The position numbers were made by a program, and so were the translations under genes. From Vicinamibacterales bacterium (GTDB lineage Bacteria > Acidobacteriota > Vicinamibacteria > Vicinamibacterales > UBA2999), in NCBI GenBank assembly GCA_030680175.1, contig JAUXWO010000061.1, positions 1 to 50,594 of the forward strand: 50,594 nt of DNA, read 5' to 3'. Positions 7,918-38,509 of this stretch are shown in pieces (position 1 is the stretch's first letter; each line of letters opens with the position of its first letter). The notes under the pieces were generated by a model. That model had not been told where the DNA came from. It saw only the letters and a program-made list of their open reading frames with translations, and did not search any database.

Positions 7918-7963
7918 AGTATAGTCAATTCGCGATTCGCGATTCGCCGTTCGCTGTTCGCTG
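7918..7963 (-). promoter_or_regulatory. Predicted -10 box of the macroglobulin operon beside a heptamer array
   Basis: On the minus strand TATACT at 7923-7918 is followed by about 24 nt to the GTG of the DUF1175 gene. The expected -35 position falls inside a short run of GCGAATC/GCGAACA-type heptamers (about 7928-7963) and has no TTGACA match. The remaining gap up to 8027 shows no other feature. Confidence 0.4.
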
Positions 7964-8690: not shown

Positions 8691-8914
8691 GAGCTGGGCG
8701 GGGTCGGGGCGGAGTGCGATCGCGAGTTGCGAATCGCGACCTGCGAACAGCGAATAGCGAATAGCGAATAGCGAATAGCGAATAGCGAATTGCGAATTGC
8801 GAATGGCGAATGGCGCTCAGCGAGCGAAGCGGAGTCCGCCTCCGCGGCCGGGGCCGCTTCGGCGAGACCCCGCCGAAGCTCGCAGGCACCCACACGCGAG
8901 CGAAGGCGGGAACG
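8691..8914. repeat. Heptamer array (GCGAATA/GCGAATT type) plus hairpin
   Basis: A 7-nt period repeat covers about 8716-8816 after the kinase stop, with units drifting from GCGATCG and GCGAACA to GCGAATA, GCGAATT and GCGAATG. A perfect 9-bp stem follows at 8856-8879 (GCTTCGGCG, 6-nt loop, CGCCGAAGC). An open frame from the ATG at 8810 runs through this region into the next gene, but it is mostly repeat and hairpin translation and is not taken as coding. Confidence 0.8.
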
Positions 8915-10603: not shown

Positions 10604-10745
10604 TGGGGGGTGGGTAGTGGGTAGTGGGTAGTGGGTAGTGACGCGATTCCACCACCTAGCTACCCACCACCTACTACCTACTACCCACCACCTACTACCT
10701 ACTACCCACTACCTACCACCCACTACCCACCACCCACTACCGCCC
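10604..10745. repeat. Complementary heptamer arrays between msrP and msrQ
   Basis: Immediately after the msrP stop, four GGGTAGT units (about 10607-10640) are followed after ~25 nt by a longer array of the complementary ACTACCC/ACTACCT type (about 10655-10744), ending 4 nt before the msrQ ATG. The two arms can pair into a long hairpin in the mRNA. The array has no stop codons in the msrQ frame and creates a spurious N-terminal extension. Confidence 0.85.
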
Positions 10746-11357: not shown

Positions 11358-11422
11358 CCGAGAGCTGATCGCTGACAGCCGATAGCTGAGAGCCGACAGC
11401 CGATCGCTGATCGCTGATCGCC
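11356..11422. repeat. Heptamer array (GCCGATC/GCTGATC type)
   Basis: The array starts in the msrQ stop codon and runs to within 20 nt of the next ATG. Its first 20 bases (GACCGAGAGCTGATCGCTGA) recur with one change right after the stop of the leftmost gene (596-615). TTACAGT at 11427-11433 could be a -10 box for an almost leaderless amidohydrolase mRNA. Confidence 0.75.
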
Positions 11423-16393: not shown

Positions 16394-16721
16394 CTAGTGG
16401 AGTGTCGTTGACGAAGAACTACCGGGCCGCCCGCTGGGCGGCCCGCAGAATCGCGGTCACGCACAGGCGCTGGTAGTACCTCTTCAGTCGATACACGCCA
16501 CTAGTGGAGTGTCGTTGACGAAGAACTACCGGGCCGCCCGTTGGGCGGCCCGCACAATCGCGGTTGAGCAGAGGCGCTGGTAGTCCCTCTTCAGTCGATA
16601 CACGCCACTAGTGGAGTGTCGTTGACAAAGAACTACCGGGCCGCCCGTTGGGCGGCCCGCAGAATCGCGGTTGAGCAGAGGCGCTGGTAGTCCCTCTTCA
16701 GTCGATACACGCCACTAGTGG
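16394..16721. repeat. Three tandem copies of a 107-bp palindromic element
   Basis: Units start with CTAGTGG at 16394, 16501 and 16608, and a fourth CTAGTGG closes the array at 16715, so the period is exactly 107 bp with few substitutions. Each unit has a central perfect 10-bp stem (CGGGCCGCCC / GGGCGGCCCG, 3-nt loop) and imperfectly complementary ends (AGTGGAGTGTCG...; ...CGATACACGCCACT). The array lies between convergent genes, and its last CTAG supplies the TAG stop of the glucan synthetase. An inverted single copy is at 26896-27008. It resembles a REP/BIME or MITE-like element; no transposase is in the window. Confidence 0.92.
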
Positions 16722-30883: not shown

Positions 30884-30891
30884 GAAGAATT

Positions 30892-31095
30892 GCAGATCGC
30901 AGATTGCAGATTGCAGATTGCGAAGGAACAGAAGGCGAATCGCGACTTGCGAACAGCGAGCAGCGAACTAGCGAACTGCGAACTGCGAACTAGCGAAATG
31001 CGAACAGCGAACTGCGAACTGCGAACTGCGAACAGCGAACAGCGAACAGCGAACAGCGAACAGCGAACTGCGAATCGCGAATAGCGAATAGCGAA
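30892..31095. repeat. Long heptamer array inside the exporter operon
   Basis: Starting 9 nt after the first permease stop, about 29 units with 7-nt period fill the gap: GCAGATC/GCAGATT first, then GCGAACT/GCGAACA and finally GCGAATA. The second permease ATG follows 25 nt later, so the array must be transcribed as part of the operon unless it terminates it. It is open in several frames. Confidence 0.9.
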
Positions 31096-35469: not shown

Positions 35470-35505
35470 CAGGCGATCAGCGATCAGCGATCAGCTGTCG
35501 GCGAC
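35470..35505. repeat. Heptamer array over the 3' end of cutA
   Basis: In minus-strand sense GATCGCT units repeat from the last cutA codons across its TGA (35486-35484) to about 35470. The array gives the final residues SPTADR and the stop codon. Confidence 0.75.
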
Positions 35506-35837
35506 CGGCCATCGGCTCCGGGCAGGCTCTCGGCCAGCCACGCCAGGTACGCGTTGCTGCCCCCGGCCACCGGGAGGACCAGGAACTCCGGCACCTCGTA
35601 GGGATGCAGCGCGCGCAGGCGCTCGCTGAGCGGCTCGACGAGATCCTCGCGGGTCTTGATCAGCAGCTGGCACTCGCGGTCCTGCTGGACCTCCCCCTGC
35701 CAGCGGTACACCGACGTGACGCCGCCGATGATGTTCACGCAGGCCGCCAGCCGCTCCTCGACAAGCGTGCGCGCGAGGGCTGCCGCCGCGTCCTCCGCGG
35801 GCATCGTGGTCAGCACGATCACAAAAGTGGACAGCAC
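35484..35837 (-). CDS. cutA: CutA1 divalent-ion tolerance protein
   Basis: This 117-residue small trimeric ferredoxin-like-fold protein is of the CutA family. Recognised parts are LVEERLAACVNIIGGVTSVYRW, then CQLLIKTREDLVEPLSERL and the signature LHPYEVPEFLVLPVAGG. The GTG at 35837 is chosen because GAGGG lies upstream at usable spacing and the frame further upstream translates only repeat (SRLSAL units). The last ~10 residues are encoded by a heptamer array, making the C-terminus a little longer than usual. The promoter at 35855-35883 runs the other way. Role in copper tolerance is historical; the biochemical function is unclear. Confidence 0.9.
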   Translation of the reverse strand: MLSTFVIVLTTMPAEDAAAALARTLVEERLAACVNIIGGVTSVYRWQGEVQQDRECQLLIKTREDLVEPLSERLRALHPYEVPEFLVLPVAGGSNAYLAWLAESLPGADGRSPTADR

Positions 35838-35854
35838 AGCCGTGGGTTTCCCTC

Positions 35855-35883
35855 TTGTACTTCCCGCCACGATGCGGTAATTA
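35855..35883 (+). promoter_or_regulatory. Promoter P1 upstream of the FtsB-like gene
   Basis: TTGTAC (35855-35860), 17-nt spacer, TAATTA (35878-35883). It is the first of three pairs with the same -35 hexamer and spacer; transcription would run through the heptamer array at 35897-35970. Confidence 0.55.
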
Positions 35884-35896
35884 TCGGTGGACGGTG

Positions 35897-35970
35897 AGCC
35901 GAAGGCCGACAGCCGAGAGCCGAGAGCCGAGAGCCGAGAGCCGATCGCCGACAGCCGACAGCCGATCGCC
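35897..35970. repeat. Heptamer array (GCCGAGA/GCCGACA type)
   Basis: About ten 7-nt units (GCCGAAG, GCCGACA, GCCGAGA repeated, GCCGATC) lie between promoters P1 and P2 in the cutA-ftsB divergent gap. Confidence 0.85.
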
Positions 35971-35985
35971 CCGGCTATTTTGCAC

Positions 35986-36014
35986 TTGTACTCGCGCCGA
36001 GATCTTGGTACAAC
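35986..36014 (+). promoter_or_regulatory. Promoter P2 upstream of the FtsB-like gene
   Basis: TTGTAC (35986-35991), 17-nt spacer, TACAAC (36009-36014), the -10 being preceded by GG as in P1 and P3. Confidence 0.55.
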
Positions 36015-36038
36015 AGCGGCGACGGCGCGATTCAGGTC

Positions 36039-36067
36039 TTGTACTTCGCCCGCCGCTCCGGTATTCT
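36039..36067 (+). promoter_or_regulatory. Promoter P3 upstream of the FtsB-like gene
   Basis: TTGTAC (36039-36044), 17-nt spacer, TATTCT (36062-36067). The ATG at 36080 is only 12 nt after the -10 box, so a transcript from P3 would have a 5-6 nt leader. Confidence 0.55.
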
Positions 36068-36079
36068 GACACGACACTG

Positions 36080-36433
36080 ATGGCTACACCCGCCGATCGC
36101 ACGCCCGCCGACGCGTCTGCCCCGAAGCCGGGGCCGGGACGCCGTGGCCGTCGTGTGCTCCGGCTGGTGCTGGCCTTCGTGACCGCGATCCTGCTGATTG
36201 ATGCGACGGTGGGCGAGAAGGGCCTGCTGACGCTGCTCGAGGCGCGCAAGGAGCACGCCGAGGTCGAGCGGTCGCTGATGCGGGCGCGGTCCGAGAATGG
36301 GCGCCTCCGGGAGGAGGCCCGCCGGCTGCGCGAGGATCCCGCCGCCATCGAGGAACTCGCGCGCCGCGACCTCGGCCTCATCATGCCCGGCGAGAAGCTC
36401 TTCATCGTCCGCGACGTCCAGCCGCGGAAGTAA
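36080..36433 (+). CDS. FtsB/DivIC-type septum formation initiator
   Basis: This 117-residue bitopic protein has a basic N-terminus (RRGRRVLR), one membrane segment (LVLAFVTAILLIDATVG), then a coiled coil (EHAEVERSLMRARSENGRLREEARRL in parts) and a short C-terminal part with EELARRDLGLIMPGEKLFIV, close to the FtsB/DivIC consensus. It would act with FtsL/FtsQ in divisome assembly. The ATG at 36080 leaves a normal-sized protein; in-frame codons upstream run through the promoter region and repeat. There is no clear Shine-Dalgarno, consistent with a very short leader from P3. In many Acidobacteria-like genomes this family is near eno, which is not seen here. Confidence 0.85.
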   Translation: MATPADRTPADASAPKPGPGRRGRRVLRLVLAFVTAILLIDATVGEKGLLTLLEARKEHAEVERSLMRARSENGRLREEARRLREDPAAIEELARRDLGLIMPGEKLFIVRDVQPRK

Positions 36434-36603
36434 GCTCGCTGTTCGCTATTCGCTATTCGCTATTCGCTATTCGCTATTCGCTATTCGCTATTCGCTATTC
36501 GCTATTCGCGAAAGCCGAAAGCCGAAAGCCGAAAGCCGACAGCCGATCGCCGACAGCCGATCGCCGACAGCCGATCGCCGACAGCCGACAGCCGATCGCG
36601 ATC
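36434..36603. repeat. Two-sided heptamer array between convergent genes
   Basis: The array starts 1 nt after the ftsB-like stop and ends 1 nt before the VTT gene stop. The left half is GCTATTC repeated about eight times; after a central TTCGCGAA palindrome it switches to GCCGAAA, GCCGACA and GCCGATC units. The switch of strand lets the two halves partly pair, as in a bidirectional hairpin. Confidence 0.9.
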
Positions 36604-37216: not shown

Positions 37217-37345
37217 CTGGTGATGTGGTGATGTCGTGATGTGGTGATCTGGATGTGCGATCGGCGGATGTGGGATCTATTTCAAGATCTGTCGATCGAT
37301 CTACTACCCACCACCCACTACCCACTACCTGCTACCCACCACCCA
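37217..37345. repeat. Repeats between metB and the VTT gene
   Basis: At 37217-37256 there is an 8-nt repeat (TGGTGATG). At 37301-37345, read on the minus strand, GGGTAGT/GGGTGGT heptamers start 1-3 nt after the metB stop, the same arrangement as after msrP. Nothing else is seen. Confidence 0.85.
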
Positions 37346-38509
37346 CTACCCCTTCACCGCATCGAGCGCCTGGGCCAGGTCTTCCTTCAGGTCGTCGATG
37401 TCCTCGATGCCGACCGAGACGCGGACGAGGCCGTCGGTGATGCCGAGGGCGGCGCGCCGCTCGGGGGGGACCGACCCGTGGGTCATCATCGCGGGGTGCG
37501 AGATGAGCGTCTCGACGCCGCCGAGGCTCTCGGCGAGCGCCATCAGCCGCACGCGGCCGAGCAGGGTGCGCGCGGCCTCGAGCGATCCGAGGTCGAACGA
37601 GATCAGGCCGCCGAACCCGCGCATCTGGCGCGCCGCCAGTGCGTGGTGCGGGTGCGAGGGCAGGCCCGGGTAGATCGTCTTCTTCACCTTCGGATGCGCG
37701 TCCAGGAACTGCGCGAGCGCGAGGCCGTTCTCGTTCGTCTTCTCCATCCGCACGGTCAGCGTCTTGGTGCCGCGCAGGATCAGCCAGCTGTCCATCGGCC
37801 CGAGGATGGCGCCCGCCGCGTTCTGCACGAAGCGCATCCACTCCACGTCATCGTCATGCTTGAGGATGACGATGCCGCCGACGCTGTCGCTGTGGCCGTT
37901 GAGGAACTTCGTCGTGCTGTGGACGACGAGATCCGCGCCGAGCGCGAGCGGGCGCTGGAGGTAGGGGCTGGCGAACGTGTTGTCGACGACGACGCGGACG
38001 CCGCGTTCGTGCGCGATGGCCGAGGCGGCCGGGAGGTCCGTGACGCTCAGCATCGGGTTGGTCGGCGTCTCGATGAACAGGTACTTCGTCTTCGGGGTGA
38101 TCGCCGGGCCGATCAGGTCGAGGTTCGACGTGTCCACGTACGAGAAGTCGAGGCCGAACTTCCGGCGCACCTTCTCGAACAGGCGGAACGTGCCGCCGTA
38201 GGTGTTATCGCTCACCAGCACGTGGTCGCCGGCCTCGAGGCGCGTGAGGATCGCGTCGATGGCGGCCATGCCCGACGCGAATGCGAAGGCGGCCGTGCCG
38301 CCCTCGATGGCGGCCACGTTGCGCTCGAGCGTCATGCGGGTCGGGTTCTGCGTCCGCCCGTACTCGTAGCCCTTGTGCTGGCCCAGTCCCTCCTGGACGT
38401 ACGTGGAGGTCTGGTAGATCGGCGTGATGATGGCGCCCGTCGCGGGGTCGGGTTCCTGGCCGGCGTGGATGCAGATGGTGCTGAAACGGGCGTGTTCGTT
38501 GAGCTTCAC
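37346..38509 (-). CDS. metB: PLP-dependent cystathionine gamma-synthase/lyase
   Basis: This 387-residue gamma-family PLP enzyme forms cystathionine from an acyl-homoserine and cysteine, or cleaves it. The fold is clear: N-terminal arm FSTICIHAGQEPDPATGAI, PLP phosphate site AFASGMAAIDAI, DNTF near residue 176, and the Schiff-base Lys201 in VHSTTKFLNGHSD. The C-terminal SLGGVETLISHPAMMTH is also typical. Synthase and lyase activities cannot be separated with certainty from sequence. GTG start at 38509 with AAGG 4 nt upstream. Divergent from the SpoIIE-type gene with a 73-nt gap, too short for a riboswitch. Confidence 0.92.
   Translation of the reverse strand: MKLNEHARFSTICIHAGQEPDPATGAIITPIYQTSTYVQEGLGQHKGYEYGRTQNPTRMTLERNVAAIEGGTAAFAFASGMAAIDAILTRLEAGDHVLVSDNTYGGTFRLFEKVRRKFGLDFSYVDTSNLDLIGPAITPKTKYLFIETPTNPMLSVTDLPAASAIAHERGVRVVVDNTFASPYLQRPLALGADLVVHSTTKFLNGHSDSVGGIVILKHDDDVEWMRFVQNAAGAILGPMDSWLILRGTKTLTVRMEKTNENGLALAQFLDAHPKVKKTIYPGLPSHPHHALAARQMRGFGGLISFDLGSLEAARTLLGRVRLMALAESLGGVETLISHPAMMTHGSVPPERRAALGITDGLVRVSVGIEDIDDLKEDLAQALDAVKG

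Follow-up and report, generated by a model that had tools for sequence, protein, structure and literature searches.

A TTGTAC element before ftsB in Vicinamibacterales as a candidate divergent promoter class

Bidirectional promoters of bacteria have been described by Warman, Grainger and colleagues; they report a shared −10 element and starts 7–25 bp apart (PMC12825309, PMC10268837). Leaderless genes have been reported to carry a TANNNT box at about 12 bp 5′ of the start codon (PMC3160421). The element described here lies before the division gene ftsB in the order Vicinamibacterales and is compared with both. In the literature searched, whose coverage leaves out most subscription papers, no description of it or of its controlling factor was found. 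Judged from its sequence and distribution, it would be a dedicated, partly symmetric divergent promoter class of Vicinamibacterales, used above all by ftsB and most likely read by an alternative sigma factor, an explanation given about an even chance of being correct.

Three TTGTAC units in the cutA–ftsB gap

The window, that is the whole stretch of 50,594 nt that was analysed, contains the divergent genes cutA and ftsB with a gap of 242 nt between them; all three units lie inside this gap on the same strand (Table 1). An earlier note had described three tandem promoters here, and its reading of the letters is accurate: three TTGTAC hexamers, each with a preceding C, are followed after 17 nt spacers by second boxes with GG in front of each, a heptamer array separates the first unit from the second, and the downstream gene is indeed a division gene, a member of the DivIC/FtsB family. 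P2 is also an inverted repeat, TTGTAC-N16-GTACAA (35986–36013), and is thus legible on both strands. P3 holds a conserved position adjoining the ftsB start codon, with its second box ending 12 nt upstream of the ATG, and no Shine-Dalgarno sequence is evident by eye before ftsB.

Table 1. Positions in the window of the TTGTAC units, neighbouring sequence features and flanking genes
Feature	Position	Strand	Description
cutA	35484–35837	−	Divergent from ftsB; PF03091, E 6e-39
P1 box read on the minus strand	35854–35859	−	TACAAG, −10-like; 16 nt to the presumed cutA GTG
P1	35855–35883	+	Distal unit; TTGTAC (35855–35860), N17, TAATTA (35878–35883)
Heptamer tandem array	35896–35970		GAGCCGA-type; between P1 and P2
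GGCTATTTTGCAC	35973–35985	+	Directly 5′ of the P2 TTGTAC; read from sequence
P2	35986–36014	+	Middle unit; TTGTAC (35986–35991), N17, TACAAC (36009–36014)
P3	36039–36067	+	Proximal unit; TTGTAC (36039–36044), N17, TATTCT (36062–36067)
ftsB/divIC	36080–36433	+	Septum formation initiator; PF04977, E 3.3e-17

Tandem arrays of 7 nt units, belonging to several unit families, occur in the window at 7928–7954, 8722–8815, 10610–10741, 11358–11418, 30889–31095 and 35472–35516. Further 7 nt arrays are the one within the cutA–ftsB gap, one directly 3′ of ftsB (36436–36595) and one at 37303–37351. Additionally, a 107 bp unit is present in 3.1 copies with 95 % matches (16394–16721).

Three exact repeats had been called unlikely by chance, and window shuffles, whole-genome pattern counts and a profile all agree. 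TTGTAC-N17-TA has four matches in the window against 0.01 expected from the shuffles; the fourth is P2 read on the minus strand, a consequence of its inverted repeat. CTTGTAC-N15-GGTA has three matches in the whole genome (4,984,022 bases), all in the cutA–ftsB gap, and TTGTACT-N16-TA has four, three in the gap and one on contig C65, with two for the reversed control pattern. A 31 nt element profile, for which 150 of 716 first-look candidates were scored, reported exactly P1–P3 at E≤10 in the same 4.98 Mb.

The earlier note had gone on to propose one sigma factor using TTGTAC, together with a genome scan as a check. The boxes are non-random, conserved, promoter-shaped and located before a division gene, and this part of the proposal stands; a general −35 is not found. 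The profile is without a further site and the sole other exact TTGTACT-N16-TA is the one on C65, so TTGTAC is not a general sigma −35 in this genome. The scan likewise yields no general TTGTAC promoter consensus, with profile matches at the ftsB locus only. Across 264 kb of stretches from the genome plus the window, in which rough calling gave 188 genes and 127 upstream gaps, TTGTAC occurs in the upstream gaps once in the forward and three times in the reverse orientation, and TTGACA seven and three times. No clear ordinary promoter consensus came from these 127 gaps, the genes being too few.

Conservation before ftsB and occurrence elsewhere

The element is conserved within the order Vicinamibacterales. 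A search for FtsB succeeded in 52 of 59 genomes, the window's own included, and order-wide in 141 of 162 (E≤1e-8). The upstream sequences oriented and scanned number 110, comprising 30 loci (own included) and 80 regions fetched from part of the order-wide hits; 17 more regions were fetched in a later sample. A small inserted gene is present in 19 of the 110 and these were counted apart, leaving 91. TTGTAC-N17-TA units are carried by 49 of the 91 and total 89, against a mean of 0.07 and a maximum of 2 in first-order Markov shuffles of the same sequences. When spacers of 10–25 nt were compared, 17 nt gave the 89 units, 16 nt none, 18 nt two, 21 nt eleven, 23 nt five and the others 0–2. The conserved word before ftsB is TTGTAC, not the TTGACA-like −35 of the RpoD housekeeping promoter.

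Families differ in how regularly they carry the unit. Within f1, the home family of the window, 22 of the 23 sequences without the small gene have it and 18 have at least two; the sole exception (L020) has a run of N at that place. Not one of the 16 f1 sequences with the inserted gene has a unit. Family f5 carries it in 15 of 18 sequences without the small gene. The unit is absent from 42 of the 91, including all examined members of f3, f11 and f14 and the cutA-linked ftsB copies of f8; it is altered in f4 and in cutA-linked copies of f15. Several f8 and f15 genomes have two ftsB copies, with differing upstream arrangements. Outside the order, no clustered sites were noticed by eye among the matches listed in a phylum-wide pattern scan of 297 genomes. 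One genome from another family of the phylum (G149) has at least 13 identical copies of CTTGTACTCATACGTAAAGGCTCGTA scattered on one contig, with 45 matches in all; this is an interspersed repeat unrelated to the arrays described here.

Comparison among relatives also indicates that three equivalent tandem promoters, as first proposed, is too simple a description, since the copies differ in conserved ways. The commonest form of the element is cTTGTACT-N15-(G/C)TAyNNT, and many second boxes are TAnnnT; the invariance of TTGTAC in the 56 aligned sites is a product of selection, these sites having been chosen with TTGTAC. For the gene-proximal copy of f1, 19 of 22 sequences show TATTnT in the second box, frequently as CTTGTACTCG..CGAAACGCGCTATTnT. 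A form like CTTGTACTTCG.CCGAAACTGCGGTACAAc is common for the middle copy, which is frequently palindromic (GGTACAAc), its TACAAC/G second boxes being without the final T expected of a −10 box. The distal copy frequently ends in GCTATTTA, with the next TTGTAC 10 nt further. The second-box form of the GGCTATTTTGCAC site, TATTTA/TATTTT with its first base 10 nt ahead of TTGTAC, is seen again in relatives. A CTATTTT/CTATTTA box is also seen shortly 5′ of TTGTAC, even without an earlier TTGTAC, in f6, f10 (L113, L121, L122, L129, L141) and f1. Most second boxes of f5 read GTACTGT or GTACCGT. One genome (that of L018) has six units, some of them with overlapping boxes. P1 and P2 are 131 nt apart in the window; in relatives the majority of adjacent copies are spaced by 20–57 nt and a few by 70–127 nt.

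At the thresholds used, the element is nearly confined to ftsB and insertion sequences. Of 88 distinct sites, 56 went into the profile, hand-picked to thin near-identical ones. In 59 genomes at E≤0.3 it gave 60 matches, 50 at ftsB and 10 elsewhere (own count). In 162 genomes at E≤0.02 it gave 56 matches in 35 genomes, own included; 51 are at ftsB, many of them training sites that match by construction, and those outside the training set come from six genomes (G334, G339, G414, G415, G416, G419). No other recurring host gene with the element appeared in the 162 genomes at E≤0.02, in larger searches whose stricter filters and scoring of part of the candidates may let weak sites elsewhere escape. 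The ftsB matches outside the training set and this lack of a second host gene supply the independent support for near-confinement. Three of the five non-ftsB matches are located by transposase-like genes according to family matches: a DUF4096 transposase (G036:C306), a DUF4096 protein (G010:C47) and a protein with DUF6444 over the cut-off and zf-IS66 below it (E 2.8e-5), as in L154 (G333:C77). The other two resemble these by eye, one being a short remnant like the G036 match (G039:C2) and one, at a contig end, resembling IS4-type starts (G368:C87).

Exact TTGTACT-N16-TA is no more frequent than its reversed control in most genomes; the clustering at ftsB stands out. Twenty stretches were fetched around other pattern matches, one of which is the ftsB of G042. 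IS4-type proteins follow the boxes in L148 and L164 (NF033592, E 1.8e-24 and 3.3e-26, both short of the curated cut-off); L148 has no Pfam match, and L151 is 67 % identical to it. An IS66-type protein follows in L154 (PF03050, E 5.8e-9) and, more weakly, in L261; DUF4096 (IS4/5 type) proteins follow in L150 and L158, and L157 presumably encodes a helix-turn-helix (HTH) protein resembling IS630. Other stretches gave no identification or resemble other genes (e.g. L156, L161, L162, L165, L167), and L149, L159, L160 and L166 are contig-end fragments. The presumed start codon falls 5–8 nt after the TAnnnT position in 9 of 12 insertion-sequence sites and 20–23 nt after it in three, sites and start codons being hand-chosen and the start in L158 opening only 8 codons, so that another start is likely there. 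Near-confinement to one host gene suggests control of division at septum formation in this lineage, and hints that the element before ftsB is a dedicated switch for cell division. Its occurrence ahead of several unrelated transposases points to an effective host promoter.

Candidate readers and competing explanations

If the element is a promoter, P3 would be the core promoter of ftsB, with a leader that is very short or absent, and P1 and P2 would be further upstream copies of the same boxes. From the end of the second box to ftsB the distance is 8–10 nt in 23 of 49 sequences, and in f5 the start is a GTG 8–10 nt on in 13 of 15, by a measure that takes the nearest in-frame start and so favours short distances. 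TTGTAC becomes GTACAA on the minus strand, with a −10 box of TACAA type inside it; a second box beginning with GTAC would there end in a −35-like GTAC. From these reverse readings of both boxes, the element would be partly symmetric and could therefore also start transcription towards cutA.

In many relatives the distal TTGTAC gives, on the other strand, a TACAAG/TACAAC box near the start of cutA. Of the 42 unit-bearing sequences linked to cutA, 20 have such a left box 4–11 nt away from a candidate in-frame start of cutA. Counting the outermost unit and the nearest start only gives 15 of 42; the other five belong to genus g21, where the box touches one start candidate and is 4 nt from another, and are thus ambiguous. 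Both starts are near boxes (cutA 4–11 nt, ftsB 6–12 nt) in 8 of the 42 (L018, L031, L075, L077, L078, L083, L092, L095), under a permissive rule taking the nearest distance across all units and start candidates. Five of the eight are clean single-unit f5 sequences (L031, L075, L078, L083, L092) in which the whole gap is ~43–50 nt. Among ftsB copies with neither cutA nor the small gene detectable beside them, 7 of 17 and 7 of 10 in two samples carry one to three units, and 10 of 17 and 3 of 10 have none; because such copies carry units, cutA is not the only reason for TTGTAC.

An alternative sigma factor, and not RpoD, would most likely bring RNA polymerase to these boxes, and transposases of several unrelated insertion sequences presumably exploit the same boxes. 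What speaks for a basal promoter is the rigid spacing of the boxes, their direction, their place ahead of start codons and their occurrence before transposases of unrelated kinds. A narrower version, in which an ftsB-devoted class has a dedicated sigma factor, each box serves as −35 one way and −10 the other, gaps of ~43–50 bp drive near-leaderless cutA and ftsB, and insertion sequences have adopted the element for their transposase, appears doubtful as a whole.

The genome has 30 Sigma70_r2 matches, 28 of them over the cut-off and RpoD among them, and these offer alternatives to RpoD. Region 4.2 of this RpoD (L229) is taken to match the E. coli sequence, with a canonical −35-reading helix. 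No unit was found on the scanned strand of the fetched sigma-like loci or at such loci in the genome-wide profile, so no sigma factor is visibly autoregulated by the class. A general sigma regulon, with sites before several host genes, was not found, the profile reporting the ftsB locus only in this genome; profile scans of the own genome and of the 59 and 162 genomes do not support one. A reader need not track with ftsB arrays, because G036 has insertion-sequence sites and its cutA-linked ftsB is without a unit.

A small protein with the core VKTTVELPGELWRAAKIRAMDERSDLRSVLIRALEEYL is encoded directly 5′ of ftsB in 19 of the 110 sequences (L005, L011–L016, L019, L030, L068–L070, L072, L074, L087, L094, L098, L102, L132), all of them without a TTGTAC unit. 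It has no Pfam match at E≤0.01 and is presumed to be ribbon-helix-helix-like. This small KTTVELP protein was rejected as the reader of the boxes: it is not in the window's own genome and is present in 19 of 59 genomes (E≤0.01). Strong matches to it are mostly at ftsB places without TTGTAC sites, and it seems to be an alternative arrangement at the same place before ftsB. One genome has two ftsB copies, one of each upstream kind (G004:C80, G004:C228). In L014, the sequence 5′ of the small gene, TTGACAGTAATACGGTAATACGGTATAAT, is a consensus-like promoter overlapping tandem TAATACGG repeats.

Possible, though on balance somewhat improbable, is that the units form an operator array. A dimeric or tetrameric transcription factor would then recognise GTAC-cored half-sites in pairs spaced by two turns of the helix (TTGTAC-N16-GTACAA and variants), and would repress or activate an ordinary RpoD promoter that serves ftsB and cutA and is located in the same sequence. 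GTAC is the core of both boxes, and distances between GTAC cores peak at 20 nt (55 pairs), followed by 33 nt (19), 53 nt (16) and 13 nt (10). Half-site pairs are inverted in f10 and direct in f5 (TTGTAC..TTGTAC) and f4 (GTACAA..GTACAA), and some copies also conserve the spacer, with CCGAAA frequent. A bound dimer is favoured by the shared cores, the differing orientations of the half-sites, the conserved spacer and the TACAAC boxes; for sigma regions 4 and 2, the CCGAAA spacer and the GTAC core in both boxes are less fitting than for a DNA-binding protein that acts as a dimer. The lack of sites in the f1 gaps with the inserted, regulator-like small gene points the same way. However, unrelated insertion sequences carry both boxes similarly near the presumed transposase start, which fits a basal promoter more. 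Factors acting at a single locus are, moreover, usually encoded nearby, and no regulator was found among the six neighbouring proteins tested. NikR-type operators are wide dyads of the form 6-N16-6, a similar geometry; NikR was rejected as the reader, PF08753 being absent from the own genome and present in 1 of 59 genomes searched.

Both starts lying close to boxes, especially in the five clean f5 gaps, could also reflect ordinary RpoD promoters kept by descent, with TTGTAC as a compromise between a −35 (TTG) one way and a −10 (TACAA) the other and no special factor involved. Bidirectional RpoD promoters are known (PMC12825309, PMC10268837). Against this, TTGTAC is kept at several ftsB copies without adjacent cutA and at insertion-sequence promoters. 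In addition, a genome with the small gene inserted (G008) has TTGACA-N17-TATAAT upstream (L014, by eye), from which it follows that a canonical promoter is used there. An RpoD compromise of this kind is thus considered quite improbable.

A methylation-gated promoter, in which GTAC as a DNA methyltransferase target would couple ftsB and transposase expression to passage of the replication fork, would account for GTAC recurring in both boxes and has precedents in division and transposition (CcrM/GANTC gates ftsZ and Dam/GATC gates IS10), but is very improbable, as the proximal second box in most f1 copies is TATTnT, without GTAC, and GTAC shows no clear avoidance or enrichment in the sampled genome (observed/expected 0.85).

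Comparison with described systems

Read as a dedicated divergent promoter class, the element shares with sigma-70 (RpoD) promoters the two boxes, the 17 nt spacer and, in many copies, a TAnnnT-like second box, and differs from them in having TTGTACT in place of TTGACA and some second boxes without a final T. The P2 form has the half-site spacing of NikR dyads, whereas the half-site differs and the genome is without NikR.

Like the leaderless genes in that account, ftsB has a TAyNNT box shortly before its start and, by eye, no evident Shine-Dalgarno sequence. Unlike them, it has TTGTACT at a fixed 17 nt further 5′; the distance from box to start mostly exceeds theirs by a few nt, and the class hardly extends beyond ftsB and transposases. 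With the bidirectional promoters the element has in common a symmetric sequence and, as predicted here, divergent starts from one DNA element. It would differ from them in that each cutA–ftsB box would serve as −35 one way and −10 the other, with outward starts ~40 bp apart; if true, such a layout would broaden the range of bidirectional promoters known so far.
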